A stretch of DNA of 32,537 nucleotides from assembly GCA_017540505.1 (NCBI GenBank), contig JAFYAW010000009.1, forward strand, positions 1 to 32,537. The letters are read 5' to 3'. A program made the position numbers and the translations under genes. The stretch is from Bacteroidales bacterium (GTDB lineage: Bacteria > Bacteroidota > Bacteroidia > Bacteroidales > WCHB1-69). Below, one piece after another: positions 2,789-32,537 of this stretch (its first letter is position 1; every line of letters begins with the position of its first letter). The notes under the pieces were generated by a model. The model ran no database searches and was not told the DNA's origin. It was given only the letters and a program-made list of their open reading frames with translations.

Positions 2789-2816
2789 GTAGAAACGCAA
2801 AATTTTGCGTCTCTAC
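2789..2816. repeat. 28-bp palindrome family copy after pstB
   Basis: The arms are GTAGAAACG and CGTCTCTAC with centre CAAAATTTTG; there is one mismatch between the two halves. It lies between the pstB stop and cysD, where the stem-loop could attenuate or stabilise the pst transcript. No T-run follows, so it is not called a terminator. Confidence 0.85.
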
Positions 2817-7953: not shown

Positions 7954-8829
7954 ATGACGGAAATAGAAAAACTACATAAAGCCTTGCGCGAAGCCGATGC
8001 CGTGGTCGTCGGTGCGGGTGCGGGACTGTCAACCGCAGCGGGGTTCACCTACTCCGGCGAGCGTTTCCAGCAGCACTTTGCCGACTTCATCCGCCAATAT
8101 GGCTTCACCGACATGTACTCAGCGGGCTTCTATCCGTTTCCCACCGAGGAGGAGAAGTGGGCCTACTGGAGCCGCCATATCTACTACAACCGCTATGTGC
8201 CCGCCCCGAAGCCCGTCTATGACAACCTGCTCAAACTGCTGAAAGACAAGGACCATTTCGTCATCACCACCAATGTCGATCACCAGTTCCAAAAAGCGGG
8301 TTTTGACAAAAAGCGGCTGTTCTACACGCAAGGTGACTACGGTCTGTTCCAATGCGCAAAACCTTGTCACCCAAAGACCTACGACAACGAGGAATTGGTG
8401 AAACGGATGATTGCGAAACAAATGGATATGCGGATTCCGTCGGAATTGGTACCGAAATGCCCCGTGTGTGGCGGTCCGATGGCGATGAACCTGCGGTCGG
8501 ACGAAACCTTCGTGGAGGACGAAGGCTGGCACGCGGCATCGAAACGGTATGAGGATTTCATCAGGCGGTATTTGAACGTAGAGACGCGCCATGGCACGTC
8601 TCTACCGAACGGCAAAATATTGTTTCTGGATTTGGGCAGCGGCGGGAACACCCCCATCGTTTTCAAAATCCCGTTCATCCAATGGACGATGCAAAACCCG
8701 AATGCCATCTACGCCACCATCAACCTCGGCGAGGCGTTCACCGTGGACCAGATCAAGGACAGGTCGATTGTGATTGACGGGGATATAGGGGAGGTGTTGG
8801 AAACATTGATTGCCCGTAGGGGCGAATAA
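7954..8829 (+). CDS. Class M sirtuin (SirTM-like), probable protein ADP-ribosyltransferase
   Basis: This 291-residue cytoplasmic protein has a Rossmann-type NAD site at GAGAGLSTAAGF (20-31). In place of the deacetylase motifs it has TTNVDHQFQKAG (N107) and FYTQGDYGLFQC, so glutamine Q126 stands where canonical sirtuins carry the catalytic histidine. This pattern is known for SirTM enzymes, which ADP-ribosylate proteins. A zinc ribbon is formed by C134, C138, C169 and C172. Residues 209-218 (VETRHGTSLP) come from a palindromic element inserted between a helix and the strand NGKILFLDLG, and the last residues and stop come from a second palindrome. The macrodomain gene starts 48 bp downstream. 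The substrate is unknown; the GcvH-like carrier gene of characterised systems is absent here. Confidence 0.88.
   Translation: MTEIEKLHKALREADAVVVGAGAGLSTAAGFTYSGERFQQHFADFIRQYGFTDMYSAGFYPFPTEEEKWAYWSRHIYYNRYVPAPKPVYDNLLKLLKDKDHFVITTNVDHQFQKAGFDKKRLFYTQGDYGLFQCAKPCHPKTYDNEELVKRMIAKQMDMRIPSELVPKCPVCGGPMAMNLRSDETFVEDEGWHAASKRYEDFIRRYLNVETRHGTSLPNGKILFLDLGSGGNTPIVFKIPFIQWTMQNPNAIYATINLGEAFTVDQIKDRSIVIDGDIGEVLETLIARRGE
8578..8605. repeat. 28-bp palindrome inserted in frame in the sirtuin gene
   Basis: The arms are GTAGAGACG and CGTCTCTAC, with centre CGCCATGGCA and one mismatch between halves. It is identical to the copy at 9107-9134. Read in frame with codon 209 it encodes VETRHGTSL. GAAC flanks it on both sides (8574-8577 and 8607-8610); removing 33 nt would restore the family-like YLNGKILFLDLG. 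This suggests an insertion with a short target duplication. Confidence 0.92.
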
Positions 8830-8843
8830 TTATTCGCCCCTAC
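8816..8843. repeat. 28-bp perfect palindrome spanning the sirtuin stop codon
   Basis: The arms are GTAGGGGCG and CGCCCCTAC with centre AATAATTATT; the two halves are perfectly complementary. This is a variant of the family with GGGG in place of GAGA. It supplies the last codons (ending RRGE) and the TAA of the sirtuin gene and forms a strong hairpin in the sirtuin-macrodomain spacer. Confidence 0.92.
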
Positions 8844-8877
8844 CACATTCGTCCCAACAAAATAAAAAACATTGATT

Positions 8878-9681
8878 ATGAACCGTTTGGATTGTTTGAT
8901 ACAATATTTGATAAACGAAAATCCGCAATATTCCGAAATGGAAATCCCCACGACCGAACAGGGAAAGCACGATCTTTTCCGTGCCTTGCGCAACATGCGT
9001 GAACCGCAACCCGTCAGCGAGGAATTTTTGCGTTTGCAGGACGAGGAATTGCAGGCGCAATTACAGGAAAAAGGAATTGTGGAATTGGTTGATATTATGG
9101 ACGTTGGTAGAGACGCGCCATGGCACGTCTCTACAGGAAAACAATTGTTGTTGTGGCAGGGCGACATCACCCGTCTCCGCGTCGATGCCATCGTGAATGC
9201 CGCCAATGCGCAGATGTTGGGCTGTTTCCATCCGTTGCATGGGTGCATCGACAACGCCATCCATTCGGCGGCGGGCGTGCAGCTGCGTGAGGAGTGTCAC
9301 CGACTGATGCAGCAACAAGGACATTTGGAACCCACGGGGACTGCCAAAATCACGAAAGCGTACAACCTTCCTTGCAAACACGTCATCCACACGGTCGGCC
9401 CGATAGTCCCGACGGGTATTCCGACACCAATGCAAAAGGAGCAGTTGGCCTCGTGCTATCGCTCCATTATGCAGCTGGCCGATGAGAACCATCTTGAAAG
9501 CATTGCCTTCTGCTGCATCTCCACGGGCGAGTTCCGCTTCCCGAACCAGCTGGCCGCTGAAATCGCCGTGCGAACCATCAAAGACTACCTGAACGCACAT
9601 CCTGATTGCAGCGTCAAGCATGTGGTTTTCAATGTATTCAAAAATTTGGACAAGGACATTTACGGCCGTTTGCTCCAATAA
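8878..9681 (+). CDS. Zinc-type macrodomain protein, probable ADP-ribosyl hydrolase
   Basis: This 267-residue cytoplasmic protein has an N-terminal helical extension (1-75) and a macrodomain (about 89-267). The ADP-ribose site shows WQGDITRLRVDAIVNAAN (93-110). Next comes GCFHPLHGCIDNAIHSAAG, whose C116, H121 and C123 fit the zinc-binding loop of macrodomains linked to SirTM. GPIVPTG and the CCISTGEFRFP loop complete the fold. Known members remove ADP-ribose added by the neighbouring sirtuin, so this is the likely eraser of the pair. Residues 77-86 (GRDAPWHVST) are encoded by a palindrome inserted just before the domain. The start is ATG 8878; a TTG at 8872 is less likely. It converges on an AraC-type gene with only 10 bp between them. 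Confidence 0.9.
   Translation: MNRLDCLIQYLINENPQYSEMEIPTTEQGKHDLFRALRNMREPQPVSEEFLRLQDEELQAQLQEKGIVELVDIMDVGRDAPWHVSTGKQLLLWQGDITRLRVDAIVNAANAQMLGCFHPLHGCIDNAIHSAAGVQLREECHRLMQQQGHLEPTGTAKITKAYNLPCKHVIHTVGPIVPTGIPTPMQKEQLASCYRSIMQLADENHLESIAFCCISTGEFRFPNQLAAEIAVRTIKDYLNAHPDCSVKHVVFNVFKNLDKDIYGRLLQ
9107..9134. repeat. 28-bp palindrome inserted in frame in the macrodomain gene
   Basis: It is base-for-base identical to 8578-8605 but read in another frame, giving RDAPWHVST. Excising 30 nt (the 28-bp element plus AG) would leave an uninterrupted DVGKQLLLWQGDIT. It sits between the N-terminal extension and the macrodomain core, where an insert is likely to be tolerated. Confidence 0.92.
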
Positions 9682-9691
9682 AATCGGCTTT

Positions 9692-10510
9692 TCATCCCCT
9701 CGGCTGCAAGCTTCTCCTGTATTCGCTGGGTGACTGGTCGAGGTGCTTGGTGCAGTAGCGGCTGAAATAGGAGAGAGAGGTGAAGTTCATGCGGTCGGCA
9801 ATCTGCGTGAGTGAGAGCCGTTCGTCGTTGAGATATTTCTTCAGGATGGGCACCGTGTGGCGGTCGATGAAGCTGCTGACGCTGTGGCCGGTGACGCGCT
9901 TGACCGTGGCGGAGAGGTACTTCGGCGACACGTGCAGTCGCTCAGCGTAGTAGCTCACCTCGCGCTCGGTGCGGCTGATTCCCGTGGAGAGCAAATCCAT
10001 CAGCTGCTTGACAATATAGGCCGTGCGGTCGCTGTGAGGGTCAGTGGAGTCGCGCTGCGCGTGCGGCTCGAAGATGTCGTACATCATCGTCAGGCAGAGG
10101 CTGCCCATCAGCTCACGGTAGAACAGCAGGTCGCGGTCGTCCATGCGGTCACGGAGGCGGTGGAAGTCTGCGAGGAGAATGTCCGCCTGCCTGTCGGTGA
10201 GCTTGATGACAGGGTCGTGGTTGAGCGAGATGCTGCCCCCGATGCTGTAGTTGTTCGACGGCAGCAGTCCCCCGAGGTACTTGTTGTCGGCGGCGAACCA
10301 CTCGACTTGCATCCCCGGTGCCGCCGCGAGGTTCTTCGCCCGCGTGGGGTTCGGCATCACCACAAGGTCGTTTTTCACGATGTGGTAGCATTTTTCGTTG
10401 AATACAAAACTGCCTTCCCCCGCCGTGCACAGCAGGTGCATGCAGGTGTGGCTCAGTTCCGGCGCGTTCATCGCGAGGAAATCGGTGGAATAGAGGAAGT
10501 CGGGTTTCAT
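9692..10510 (-). CDS. AraC-family transcriptional regulator, divergent from the redox cluster
   Basis: This 272-residue regulator has an N-terminal cupin-like sensing part (about 1-140; SFVFNEKCYHIVKNDLVVMP) and a C-terminal double helix-turn-helix (about 175-270; REVSYYAERLHVSPKYLSAT, then SLTQIADRMNFTSLSYFSRY with KHLDQSPSEYR). The open frame extends to 10588, but a -7 box at 10515-10522 lies within that extension, so the ATG at 10510 (MKPDFLYS) is the start. It is transcribed away from the acetyltransferase to oxidoreductase cluster at 10657-14853. By the common arrangement it probably controls that cluster and itself. The effector is unknown. Confidence 0.92.
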   Translation of the reverse strand: MKPDFLYSTDFLAMNAPELSHTCMHLLCTAGEGSFVFNEKCYHIVKNDLVVMPNPTRAKNLAAAPGMQVEWFAADNKYLGGLLPSNNYSIGGSISLNHDPVIKLTDRQADILLADFHRLRDRMDDRDLLFYRELMGSLCLTMMYDIFEPHAQRDSTDPHSDRTAYIVKQLMDLLSTGISRTEREVSYYAERLHVSPKYLSATVKRVTGHSVSSFIDRHTVPILKKYLNDERLSLTQIADRMNFTSLSYFSRYCTKHLDQSPSEYRRSLQPRG

Positions 10511-10514
10511 AGCG

Positions 10515-10522
10515 CAAAAGTA
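10515..10522 (-). promoter_or_regulatory. -7 box of the divergent AraC-type gene
   Basis: On the minus strand this reads TACTTTTG, matching TAnnTTTG. It ends only 4 bp before the ATG, so the transcript would have an extremely short or no leader. No convincing -33 element is visible. Confidence 0.6.
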
Positions 10523-10590
10523 CAATTTTTTTTCTGCAATTTGTGAAAGTTTTGATGTTTTTTGTGAAACTTTTATAATAAGAAACACTG

Positions 10591-10598
10591 TATTTTTG
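10591..10598 (+). promoter_or_regulatory. -7 box of the redox cluster
   Basis: TATTTTTG lies 58 bp before the acetyltransferase ATG. The region between it and the opposite -7 box (10523-10590) is AT-rich, with repeated TTTGTGAAA (at 10541 and 10561), TTTGTGAAA being a candidate regulator-binding half-site. Confidence 0.6.
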
Positions 10599-10656
10599 CC
10601 TCGTCAAATTGGCAAGGACAGTAAGGATATTATAAAATAAAGAAAACCAATACGTT

Positions 10657-11199
10657 ATGCAAGAAATTATCGTTGACCCGAGACAAAGCACGCCCGAGGA
10701 ATTGGCGGAAGGGATGCGTCAGGCGCAGACCTTGTTCAAACTCAACCACACGATGCCCTATACCGACGAGTACAACGCCCTCGCCGAAGAGCTGTTCGGC
10801 CATGATGTGTTTGCCGACGGCGGCTTCGTGATGCCCGGACTCACGGGTGTCTGTTTCGACCGCGTGAAGCTGGGCCGCGGTGTGAAAATCATGAACAACT
10901 GCCTGATGATGGCCCGCGGTGGCATCATCCTTGAGGAGGGAGCGATGGTCGCCGCCAACGCACAGCTCATCAGCAACAACCACGACCTCCACGACCGGAT
11001 GCTACTTATCTGCAAGCCCGTCCACATCGGCAAAAACGCTTGGATCGGGGCAGGCGCCACCATCTTGCCGGGTGTTACTGTGGGCGAGAACGCCGTGGTA
11101 GCCGCTGGTGCCGTTGTCACCAAAGATGTGGCTCCAAATACTATCGTGGGCGGCAATCCTGCGAAGTTTATCAAGAATATTCCCACTAAAGAGCAATAA
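10657..11199 (+). CDS. Maltose O-acetyltransferase-like sugar acetyltransferase
   Basis: This 180-residue protein has a left-handed beta-helix fold typical of acetyl-CoA-dependent O-acetyltransferases (LacA, Maa, NodL group). An N-terminal helical part (1-65) is followed by hexapeptide repeats such as VKLGRGVKIMNNC, IILEEGAMVAANAQLISN, PVHIGKNAWIGAGATILPGV and TVGENAVVAAGAVVTKDV. The catalytic histidine is probably H109 in NNHDLHDR. The C-terminal IVGGNPAKFIKNI is characteristic of the family. It is the first gene of the cluster facing the AraC-type regulator, and the flavodoxin gene starts 4 bp after its stop. The acceptor substrate cannot be told from the sequence. Confidence 0.9.
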   Translation: MQEIIVDPRQSTPEELAEGMRQAQTLFKLNHTMPYTDEYNALAEELFGHDVFADGGFVMPGLTGVCFDRVKLGRGVKIMNNCLMMARGGIILEEGAMVAANAQLISNNHDLHDRMLLICKPVHIGKNAWIGAGATILPGVTVGENAVVAAGAVVTKDVAPNTIVGGNPAKFIKNIPTKEQ

Positions 11200-11202
11200 A
11201 CT

Positions 11203-11853
11203 ATGAGCGCAAAAACCATCATCACAGCAGCCCTCGTACTGATTATGGCAGGCTGCAACGGACAAAACAACAACGTAGAGACGTTTCATGAAACGTCTCT
11301 ACAAGACAACAAACAAGAATCTAATAATCAAAACAATACGAATATGAGCAAATCCATCGTCATCTTCTTCTCCCACGCGGGCGACAACTACGCCGTGGGG
11401 AACATCGAGGTCGGAAACACTAAAATTGTGGCCGACTACATCACGGAAATCACCGGTGCGGCGCAGTACGAAATCGTCACCCACAAGTACGACGGTATGG
11501 CTTACAACCCGCTGATTGAACTGGCCAAAAAGGAGGCAAAGAACGGTGAGTTGCCGCCCTACGAGGGTTCGGCTCCCGACCTCTCGCAGTATAACACCGT
11601 CTTCATCGGCGGTCCCGTCTGGTGGGGAACCTATCCGCAGGTGATGTTCACGCTGTTCAAGGACATTAACCTCGATGGCAAAACCGTGATCCCCTTCACC
11701 ACCCACGAGGGCAGCGGCCTTGCCAGTTGCGAGAGCGACGTGCGCAAAGCTTTCCCCAAGGCCAACGTCCAGAAAGGCTGGAGCATCTATGGCCACGAGG
11801 TGCGAACGGGAAGAGCGAAGGTAGAGAAGTGGCTACAAGGATTAGGTTATTAA
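11203..11853 (+). CDS. Flavodoxin-like protein with lipoprotein signal
   Basis: This 216-residue product begins with a short signal peptide and lipobox MAGC (acylated C18). A low-complexity N/Q-rich linker (19-47) follows, then a flavodoxin domain. FMN-loop features are IVIFFSHAGDNYAVG (51-65), GGPVWWGTYPQ and FTTHEGSGLASCE. Residues 25-34 (VETFHETSLQ) are encoded by a perfect palindromic element inside the linker. An internal ATG at 11344 (MSKSIVIFF) would yield a cytoplasmic 169-residue flavodoxin of ordinary size, so a dual or alternative start is possible. It is translationally coupled to the acetyltransferase and followed closely by an aldo/keto reductase. Whether the exported form holds FMN and meets a redox partner is not known. 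Confidence 0.87.
   Translation: MSAKTIITAALVLIMAGCNGQNNNVETFHETSLQDNKQESNNQNNTNMSKSIVIFFSHAGDNYAVGNIEVGNTKIVADYITEITGAAQYEIVTHKYDGMAYNPLIELAKKEAKNGELPPYEGSAPDLSQYNTVFIGGPVWWGTYPQVMFTLFKDINLDGKTVIPFTTHEGSGLASCESDVRKAFPKANVQKGWSIYGHEVRTGRAKVEKWLQGLGY
11275..11302. repeat. 28-bp perfect palindrome inserted in frame in the flavodoxin gene
   Basis: The arms are GTAGAGACG and CGTCTCTAC with centre TTTCATGAAA; the halves are perfectly complementary. It is read in the same frame as the sirtuin copy (VETFHETSL against VETRHGTSL). It lies in the flexible linker between lipobox and flavodoxin domain. ACAAC occurs on both sides, but the linker is too repetitive to claim a target duplication. Confidence 0.92.
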
Positions 11854-19048: not shown

Positions 19049-19076
19049 TTTGAGACGCGATGAATCGCGTCTCTAC
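19049..19076. repeat. Divergent copy of the 28-bp palindrome
   Basis: GAGACGCGAT (19052-19061) pairs with ATCGCGTCTC (19064-19073) across a two-base centre. The right arm keeps the family end CTAC while the left arm reads TTTGAGACG. It lies in the spacer between two convergent genes. Confidence 0.75.
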
Positions 19077-28957: not shown

Positions 28958-29297
28958 TATAGGGAAAACCGGGTTGTCGCTGCCACAGTCATGTGGGGGA
29001 GGAAAGTCCGGGCAACACAGAGCACCATACTTCCTAACGGGAAGGCATTCTCGGAATGACAGACAGTGCCACAGAAAAGATACCGCCCGAAAGGGTAAGG
29101 GTGAAAACGCGAGGTAAGAGCTCACGACGCCGTCAGTGATGCCGGCGATGGTAAACCTTATGGGTTGAAAGACCAAATAAACCGAGGCTTGAGGGCTGCT
29201 CGTCCGACTCGGAGGGTAGGTTGATGGAGGCCTGCGGTGACGCAGGTCCTAGATAAATGACAACCGAACACAGAACCCGGCTTATAGGTTTTCCCTG
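28958..29297 (+). ncRNA. rnpB: RNase P RNA
   Basis: This is the catalytic RNA of RNase P, which removes tRNA 5' leaders. The universal conserved regions are present: GAGGAAAGTCCGGGC near the 5' end (29000-29014) and ACAGAACCCGGCTTATAG near the 3' end (29269-29286). The closing helix P1 is AGGGAAAACC (28961-28970) with GGTTTTCCCT (29287-29296). The internal GCGAGGTAAGAGCTCAC (29110-29126) is the typical specificity-domain motif. Length is about 340 nt. It starts about 5 nt after the dnaN stop, with no visible -7 box of its own, and ends just before a terminator. Exact ends are approximate. Confidence 0.95.
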
Positions 29298-29300
29298 TTA

Positions 29301-32265: not shown

Positions 32266-32338
32266 CGGGGTGTAGCGCAGTTGGTAGCGCGCTACGTTCG
32301 GGACGTAGAGGCCGGAAGTTCGAGTCTTCTCACCCCGA
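32266..32338 (+). tRNA. tRNA-Pro (anticodon CGG)
   Basis: The 73-nt cloverleaf has acceptor stem CGGGGTG (32266-32272) with CACCCCG (32331-32337) and discriminator A at 32338. The D-arm is GCGC...GCGC with loop AGTTGGTA. The anticodon stem is CTACG/CGTAG around loop TTCGGGA, so the anticodon is CGG (reads CCG, proline). The T-arm contains GTTCGAGTC. The 3' CCA is not encoded (CT follows). Confidence 0.97.
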
Positions 32339-32345
32339 CTGTCAG

Positions 32346-32396: not shown

Positions 32397-32537
32397 GTAG
32401 AGACGCGCCATGGCGAACCTGCTGAAGAACTCCCACATTTTCAGACGACAGGCTTTAAAAGAGCGACCTTTTGGGCGGGACTGACAGGGCTGCGAACGTT
32501 TTTTCTGGCTTTGCCTGTCAGGTCACGCCAGCGCTGA
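32397..32537 (-). repeat. Right copy of 141-bp inverted repeat, cut by the window end
   Basis: This is the reverse complement of 18-158 with two differences. It starts with GTAGAGACGCGCCATGGCG (32397-32415), one full arm and centre of the palindrome family, then continues into AACCTGCTGAAGAACTCC and beyond. The repeat reaches the last base of the window, so its outer end is not seen. An open frame runs through it (ending LPVRSRQR), but the same frame in the other copy shows only what any repeat would give; coding is not supported. Confidence 0.9.

Follow-up and report, generated by a model that had tools for sequence, protein, structure and literature searches.

The window analysed here is the whole of a 32,537-nucleotide stretch (contig JAFYAW010000009.1, assembly GCA_017540505.1) from a Bacteroidales bacterium of the WCHB1-69 lineage, in which 28-bp palindromes, assigned below to the double-foot repetitive extragenic palindromes (REPs), lie inside protein genes. 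Three genes of the forward (+) strand are concerned: a SIR2-family (sirtuin) gene at 7954..8829, a Macro-domain gene at 8878..9681, and a flavodoxin (Flavodoxin_4) gene at 11203..11853. The sirtuin is only distantly related to SIR2 (23.2 bits against a cut-off of 24), with 5a3a as its nearest relative among solved proteins, a Macro domain was found in the neighbouring gene, and the enzymatic activity of both proteins is predicted. A first-pass annotation had reported the palindromes at 8578-8605, 9107-9134, and 11275-11302, with the reading frames kept open through them. The positions are exact, and translation established the in-frame inserts VETRHGTSLP, GRDAPWHVST, and VETFHETSLQ. The sirtuin copy (8578..8605, interior CGCCATGGCA) adds 11 codons together with a 5-bp flank repeat, the copy at 9107..9134 (interior CGCCATGGCA) is identical to it in sequence and lies in the N-terminal linker ahead of the macrodomain, and the flavodoxin copy (11275..11302, interior TTTCATGAAA) lies in an N-terminal linker. 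GTAG gives a TAG stop in one of the three frames of each strand, so at most two frames can be open, which is why the annotation had seen two. Two further full copies were found, one at 8816..8843 (arms GTAGGGGCG, interior AATAATTATT) that overlaps the sirtuin 3' end and holds its TAA stop, and one at 2789..2816 that is intergenic (GTAGAAACG-CAAAATTTTG-CGTCTCTAC). A degenerate copy at 19050..19076 (interior CGATGAATCG) has lost its left foot. The arm GTAGAGACG with at most one mismatch was matched 15 times in the window against a shuffle mean of 4.0, and none of 100 shuffles reached 15. Four copies folded as single-stranded DNA gave hairpins of -8.4 to -12.9 kcal/mol. RNA hairpins were also predicted for the three copies within the window's genes, each taken with flanks of 30 bp, with z scores against shuffles of -3.9 for the flavodoxin, -1.7 for the sirtuin, and -0.3 for the macrodomain; since only the flavodoxin fold clearly beats shuffles, no case is made for a role in the mRNA.

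The window's own genome was searched for the arms, as the annotation had proposed. Exact 9-bp arms gave 36 copies and relaxed arms 42, with 0 matches to the reversed control pattern in each case. A far looser pattern gave 58 matches against 405 for its control, so that this count is meaningless. A total of 47 distinct copies, including five clearly palindromic places among the looser-pattern matches listed, were examined with their flanks; 41 measure 28 bp and the other 6 measure 29 bp. The arms are nearly fixed across copies, and the 10-bp interior varies yet remains palindromic. The pattern was present in 44 of 60 genomes (own included), namely in all 36 of the genus and in 8 of the 24 others of the order, and the same-genus genomes hold 2 to 261 copies each. 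An exact-pattern scan of named genomes returned at least 118 stretches; the hosts among the matches listed included many Bacteroidota and Cyanobacteria, along with a small number of Spirochaetes, Chloroflexi, Planctomycetes, Acidobacteria, and others. The annotation's claim of a dispersed palindromic element lying in frame in three genes was thus confirmed, and the copies in the window are far from the only ones, being part of an established genome-wide family. Its suggestion of recent spread, drawn from two identical copies, did not hold: CGCCATGGCA is simply the commonest own interior (14 of the 41 copies of 28 bp), and genome G024 has the sirtuin copy too, in a decayed form. Synteny of the window with genome G029 was limited to patches among the stretches fetched.

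Ten of the 47 own copies lie inside nine recognisable genes. Besides the sirtuin, macrodomain, and flavodoxin genes of the window, these encode a ketoacyl synthase (L002), a GH97 glycosidase (L006), a GH2 glycosidase (L086, which holds two copies), two FISUMP proteins (L011 and L092), in which the copies fall within the type IX secretion system (T9SS) sorting domain, and a REP-associated tyrosine transposase (RAYT; L022). Seven copies (L013, L015, L065, L072, L084, L085, and L090) were omitted from the genic count, being judged antisense or upstream of a start codon on the basis of reading frames and not of a family search. Long frames are still avoided: open frames of at least 200 codons contain 19 of the 47 copies, compared to 701 of 940 random stretches.

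Homologues with and without the element were compared at each of the three genes. For the sirtuin, 9 rows of 14 places were used, leaving out L032-L036 (partial, distant, or deleted). The element was present in two of the nine and absent with a 33-bp gap in seven, four of which also show an 11-residue protein gap. The closest homologue, at 96% protein identity, differs by exactly 33 bp, that is, the 28 bp of the element and a 5-bp repeat (TGAAC in the ancestor, judged from L024). Because 33 bp is 11 codons, the frame is kept, and 5a3a has no extra residues at the insertion point. Judged from these alignments, the sirtuin copy is a clean insertion, and the check by clean gaps in homologues that the annotation had suggested is borne out here. 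The refuting conditions named in the annotation, checked at the sirtuin and genome-wide, did not refute it. Support is partial for the flavodoxin, where an element or remnant is widely shared (15 of 19 homologues) and the element-free L051 and L059 show a 30-bp difference in a linker that has other gaps, and for the macrodomain, where no clean empty site was found among the relatives compared and other repeats occupy the same linker. One alternative is that the peptides are old parts of these proteins and are palindromic by chance or through codon-level selection. The widely shared flavodoxin linker would agree with this, but the genome-wide copies refute it, identical 28-mers being found both in unrelated genes and in intergenic DNA; the clean sirtuin gap also speaks against it, and it is given practically no weight. 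Two side observations concern the same genes. The macrodomain linker of L025-L028 and L031 is filled by other sequence (TTTCAATTTTCAA runs), and deletions in L032 (G027) and L035 (G017) join the sirtuin to the macrodomain gene, at a REP in L032 and at a shared CAGGGCGAC in L035.

The sirtuin TGAAC prompted a search for a general target duplication, which was rejected because an exact 5-mer repeat was seen in 0 of the 47 own copies; a slight excess of 1-3 bp flank repeats was present over the same set. A miniature inverted-repeat transposable element of a DDE transposon was likewise rejected, there being no regular target-site duplication over the 47 copies and one site with a 5-bp repeat. The element fits the double-foot REPs of RAYT subclass 2.4 in having a GT[AG]G foot at the 5' end of the hairpin and its complement C[TC]AC at the 3' end, in having many dispersed copies per genome, and in the presence of RAYTs flanked by or containing the REP, which for the window's two types were found in related genomes. 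According to the accessible text of Quentin 2018 (PMC6006769), double-foot REPs with subclass 2.4 RAYTs occur in Cyanobacteria and Bacteroidetes, where they flank the RAYT and are also found in frame within its gene, as a rule between HuH and Y. The accessible part of Di Nocera 2013 (PMC3733652) describes REPs in unrelated genes, with GTAG ends that supply TAG stops, and names Bacteroidetes among the hosts of CGTC repeats; its GTAG families carry the tag at one end, unlike the tags at both ends here. The annotation's parallel with the Rickettsia palindromic elements stands as far as palindromes in frame in protein genes are concerned. It is a loose one, since those elements carry CGTC at one end, as described in the accessible part of PMC3733652, and the ends here are GTAG and CTAC; separated by this description, they fit less well than the subclass 2.4 double-foot REP. 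The parallel with the small dispersed repeats of cyanobacteria is a possible one; the exact arm pattern was found in several cyanobacterial genomes. A text search of the literature for the arm GTAGAGACG gave no bacterial repeats among the matches listed.

RAYT partners were then sought in the own and related genomes. Of five Y1 transposase gene matches in the own genome, four were above the cut-off and the fifth was L022, which carries an in-frame palindrome directly after the HuH motif and a second palindrome upstream. The idea that all Y1 transposases are partners was rejected: 0 of 33 ordinary Y1 loci (own and genus genomes, about 100 kb) had a palindrome within ~600 bp, and the 3 palindromes in this sequence were all farther off. 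The consensus of the RAYT profile A1 fits the subclass 2.4 motifs NH[IFV]H, WQ, and YIxNNP. Searching the order with A1 gave matches in 131 of 295 genomes; among the best 30 loci, 27 pass the motif rule, and 20 of these 27 hold a palindrome, 19 of them after HuH; the 3 loci that fail the rule also hold one. In the genus, A1 matched 23 of 40 genomes, and the palindrome was held by 10 of 30 RAYT loci, lay inside or within 700 bp in 21, and flanked 7 on both sides (3 loci are common to the two sets of 30). Both types of the window were found at such established associations: RAYTs with CGCCATGGCA, the type of the sirtuin and macrodomain copies, are L375-L377 in G062, G023, and G008, and L381 in G015 has TTTCATGAAA, the flavodoxin type, on both sides. 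L382 has interior type CACGGCCGTG. In Planktothrix, the window's exact 28-mer lies 48 bp from a RAYT frame. A tree of 51 RAYT loci required 21 interior label changes for 20 labels (minimum 19) compared to 38.9 in shuffles, and none of 200 shuffles reached 21. Type and RAYT lineage are thus matched, and because the interior tracks the RAYT tree, it acts like a recognition code tied to the transposase lineage. On 88% of 94 sides the base directly outside the foot (-1) is a pyrimidine, compared with 48% in the background, and CT is 4.3-fold enriched over expectation; in the public set a pyrimidine stands there on 76% of 288 sides. The E. coli RAYT is reported, in the accessible text of PMC8266576, to cleave at a CT next to the REP.

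Some further repeat features were observed. The CGCCATGGCA type keeps a C-A mismatch (a T-G pair on the opposite strand) and so has a direction; the window copies at 8578 and 9107 have C-A in the coding strand, and the copies of the GH97 slot described below and of RAYTs L286 and L377 have T-G. L021 (G000:C13 near 48904) is another Y1 transposase gene amid different repeats (GGAGAGGCGC...GTGCAATTAACACC). The contig ends, at 99-158 and 32397-32456, carry inverted repeats of ~60 bp with two mismatches that include part of a CGCCATGGC-type REP, and the assembly seems to break inside a longer repeat there. The window also holds an RNase P RNA of class A at 28961-29300 and a tRNA-Pro (cgg) at 32266-32339.

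Turnover of the interior at fixed genic sites was followed in three host genes. In GH97 (27 of 34 places used), the element sits at one left junction in 19 of the 27 homologues, with nine interiors, some of them with small arm changes. The slot lies within residues 466-513, a stretch absent from the solved GH97 enzymes 8wg0 and 8wg1. On a gene tree built without the slot, 16 interior changes were counted, and shuffles gave 16.9 (68 of 200 needed no more than 16). For the flavodoxin slot the counts were 10 observed and 10.2 in shuffles (122 of 200 needed no more than 10) on a tree of 19 of 28 places; L062, which is the gene already represented by L053, was omitted, as were places that are partial or distant. 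Interiors in host genes therefore scatter over the gene tree as in shuffles, the reverse of the RAYT pattern. One alternative is that different REPs landed independently at one hot spot after loss of an earlier one. Element-free homologues exist (8 of 27 GH97, 4 of 19 flavodoxin), and the accessible part of PMC3733652 describes different REPs near the same recB site in two Xanthomonas; however, 19 GH97 copies share the exact left junction and the flank preference elsewhere is weak, and this alternative is considered unlikely.

A difference in interior can also be seen between close relatives. The well-supported GH97 sisters L310 (TTTCATGAAA) and L313 (TGCCATGGCG), with support of 100/99 and branches of 0.029 and 0.055, differ at five of ten interior positions with the flanks in place. 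Pairing was assessed on 14 distinct chosen slot elements (11 from GH97, 3 from the ketoacyl synthase slot), in which 97.4% of pairs were kept and 26 double-change cells were counted against a shuffled mean of 6.8. Drift of the interior in place, by point mutations copied across the hairpin (quasi-palindrome correction), would keep the palindromes paired, as they are, and one-base variants such as TTTCAGGAAA and TTTCCTGAAA exist; 82 distinct interiors were counted in all, so rare variants do arise. Drift is nonetheless improbable as the general explanation, because the common interiors turn up again in several genomes and go with particular RAYT clades, and because relatives as close as L310 and L313 differ at half of the interior.

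A serious rival to exchange of the element itself is short-tract homologous recombination between species, which would move alleles of gene segments so that one old insertion per type suffices. L309 and L310 share the interior plus the next base, 12 of 24 inner GH97 tree branches are open, and GH97 homologues in three separate branches (L304, L326, and L370) share one nearly identical non-palindromic loop. The tracts would have to be short, given that the supported sisters L310 and L313 differ in the interior with flanks in place, and something must still have placed the types at one junction. We regard recombination as unlikely, though more probable than the other alternatives.

The ketoacyl synthase slot (L002 = G000:C4:10580-10607; homologues L332-L343) has a REP or remnant at a fusion joint. 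Thirteen places were compared, more distant ones being omitted. In the 7 readable places with an element or remnant, the protein is fused to the next one; in the 5 places without an element, stop codons stand at the joint and the frames are separate; and one place with an element could not be judged because its sequence contains N.

Taken together, the palindromes are very probably RAYT-dependent double-foot REPs whose interior is matched to the RAYT lineage and which are replaced in place within genes. In the mechanism proposed, the REPs would be dependent on subclass 2.4-type RAYT (TnpA-REP) transposases, and every RAYT lineage would work with a 10-bp interior specific to it. As a single-strand HuH nuclease, the RAYT would make its cut next to the foot, usually at a flanking pyrimidine, and would join hairpins into single-stranded DNA. 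Genic copies would persist only where a loop or linker tolerates them and the overall gain in length is divisible by three. The feet of a resident REP would then form a docking slot in the gene, at which a RAYT of another type, or recombination via the arms, could replace the hairpin in place, altering chiefly the middle residues of VET-xxxx-SLQ. The interior turnover at fixed sites is established by the gene comparisons above, and that the RAYT performs both the move and the swap is what we infer from the association. More specifically, genic REPs may be landing slots at which RAYTs swap cassettes at the feet, keeping the VET and SLQ ends in frame; this is put forward as a tentative reading, possible but not favoured with confidence.

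Several results weigh against this interpretation. The 5-bp flank repeat at the sirtuin is unlike single-strand transposition. L022 falls below the cut-off of PF01797 and NF047646 (45.2 bits vs 80), and its motifs DHIH, WQ, and YIEQNV differ from NHxH and YIxNNP. The own genome, 91% complete, yielded no RAYT of either window type. Among the 30 RAYT loci of the genus, 20 have no internal copy and 9 have none within 700 bp, and REP density in the genus did not depend on whether a RAYT is now present (14.8 per Mb in 20 genomes with and 11.0 per Mb in 16 without, p=0.36). Profile A1 was built from 12 RAYTs mostly found beside palindromes. In the 118 public stretches, a palindrome lay in 10 of 12 RAYT-like frames (one probably before the start codon, one a fragment), a count that is favoured because the stretches had been fetched for the palindrome. 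The RAYT tree is restricted to 51 loci out of 68, those whose element lies inside or no more than 500 bp away, holds near-copies (e.g., L272 = L201), and has the unlike 29-bp element of L293 merged into another label. Many forks of the GH97 and flavodoxin trees are weak. Counted by pairs, double change is less striking than by cells (5 pairs vs 3.4 in shuffles, 55 of 500 shuffles), and the pairing set omits the decayed L305, L312, L332, L333, L335, and L339. Finally, the genome count of one type showed no clear match, in a by-eye comparison, as predictor of the GH97 slot type.

The annotation had held the invasion of coding genes by such an element to be not well described. This is right only in part, the element family and intragenic REPs both being already known from the accessible text of PMC6006769 and PMC3733652. 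The element belongs to a known family, and its replacement in place within genes appears to be the new part. Neither replacement of interiors in place in host genes nor the placing of interiors on a RAYT tree is treated in the accessible text of PMC6006769, and the accessible text of PMC3733652 contained no measurement of turnover. The accessible part of Nunvar 2013 (PMC3686654) describes a REP orthoswitch at orthologous RAYTs, with new types that may partially replace old ones. That switch takes place at the RAYT locus, and for old REPs at other sites the paper describes decay; in the present case, by contrast, REPs at distant sites within genes appear to be replaced. Exchange of REP types at fixed genic junctions was not found in the accessible text of these three papers or among the literature titles listed.

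The spread of REPs is called poorly understood in the accessible REP literature, and genic sites that change the hairpin and keep the junction offer a natural assay of it. The match between interior and RAYT lineage amounts to a recognition code that is open to in vitro test. Short in-frame VET-xxxx-SLQ peptides in Bacteroidales proteins can be mobile DNA and not conserved protein sequence. If the landing-slot reading is true, a fixed position in a host protein would be rewritten faster than its flanks diverge, RAYT-driven cassette exchange would preserve in nature a trace of how REPs move in place, and the slots would supply proteins with variable loops and fused genes with their joints.

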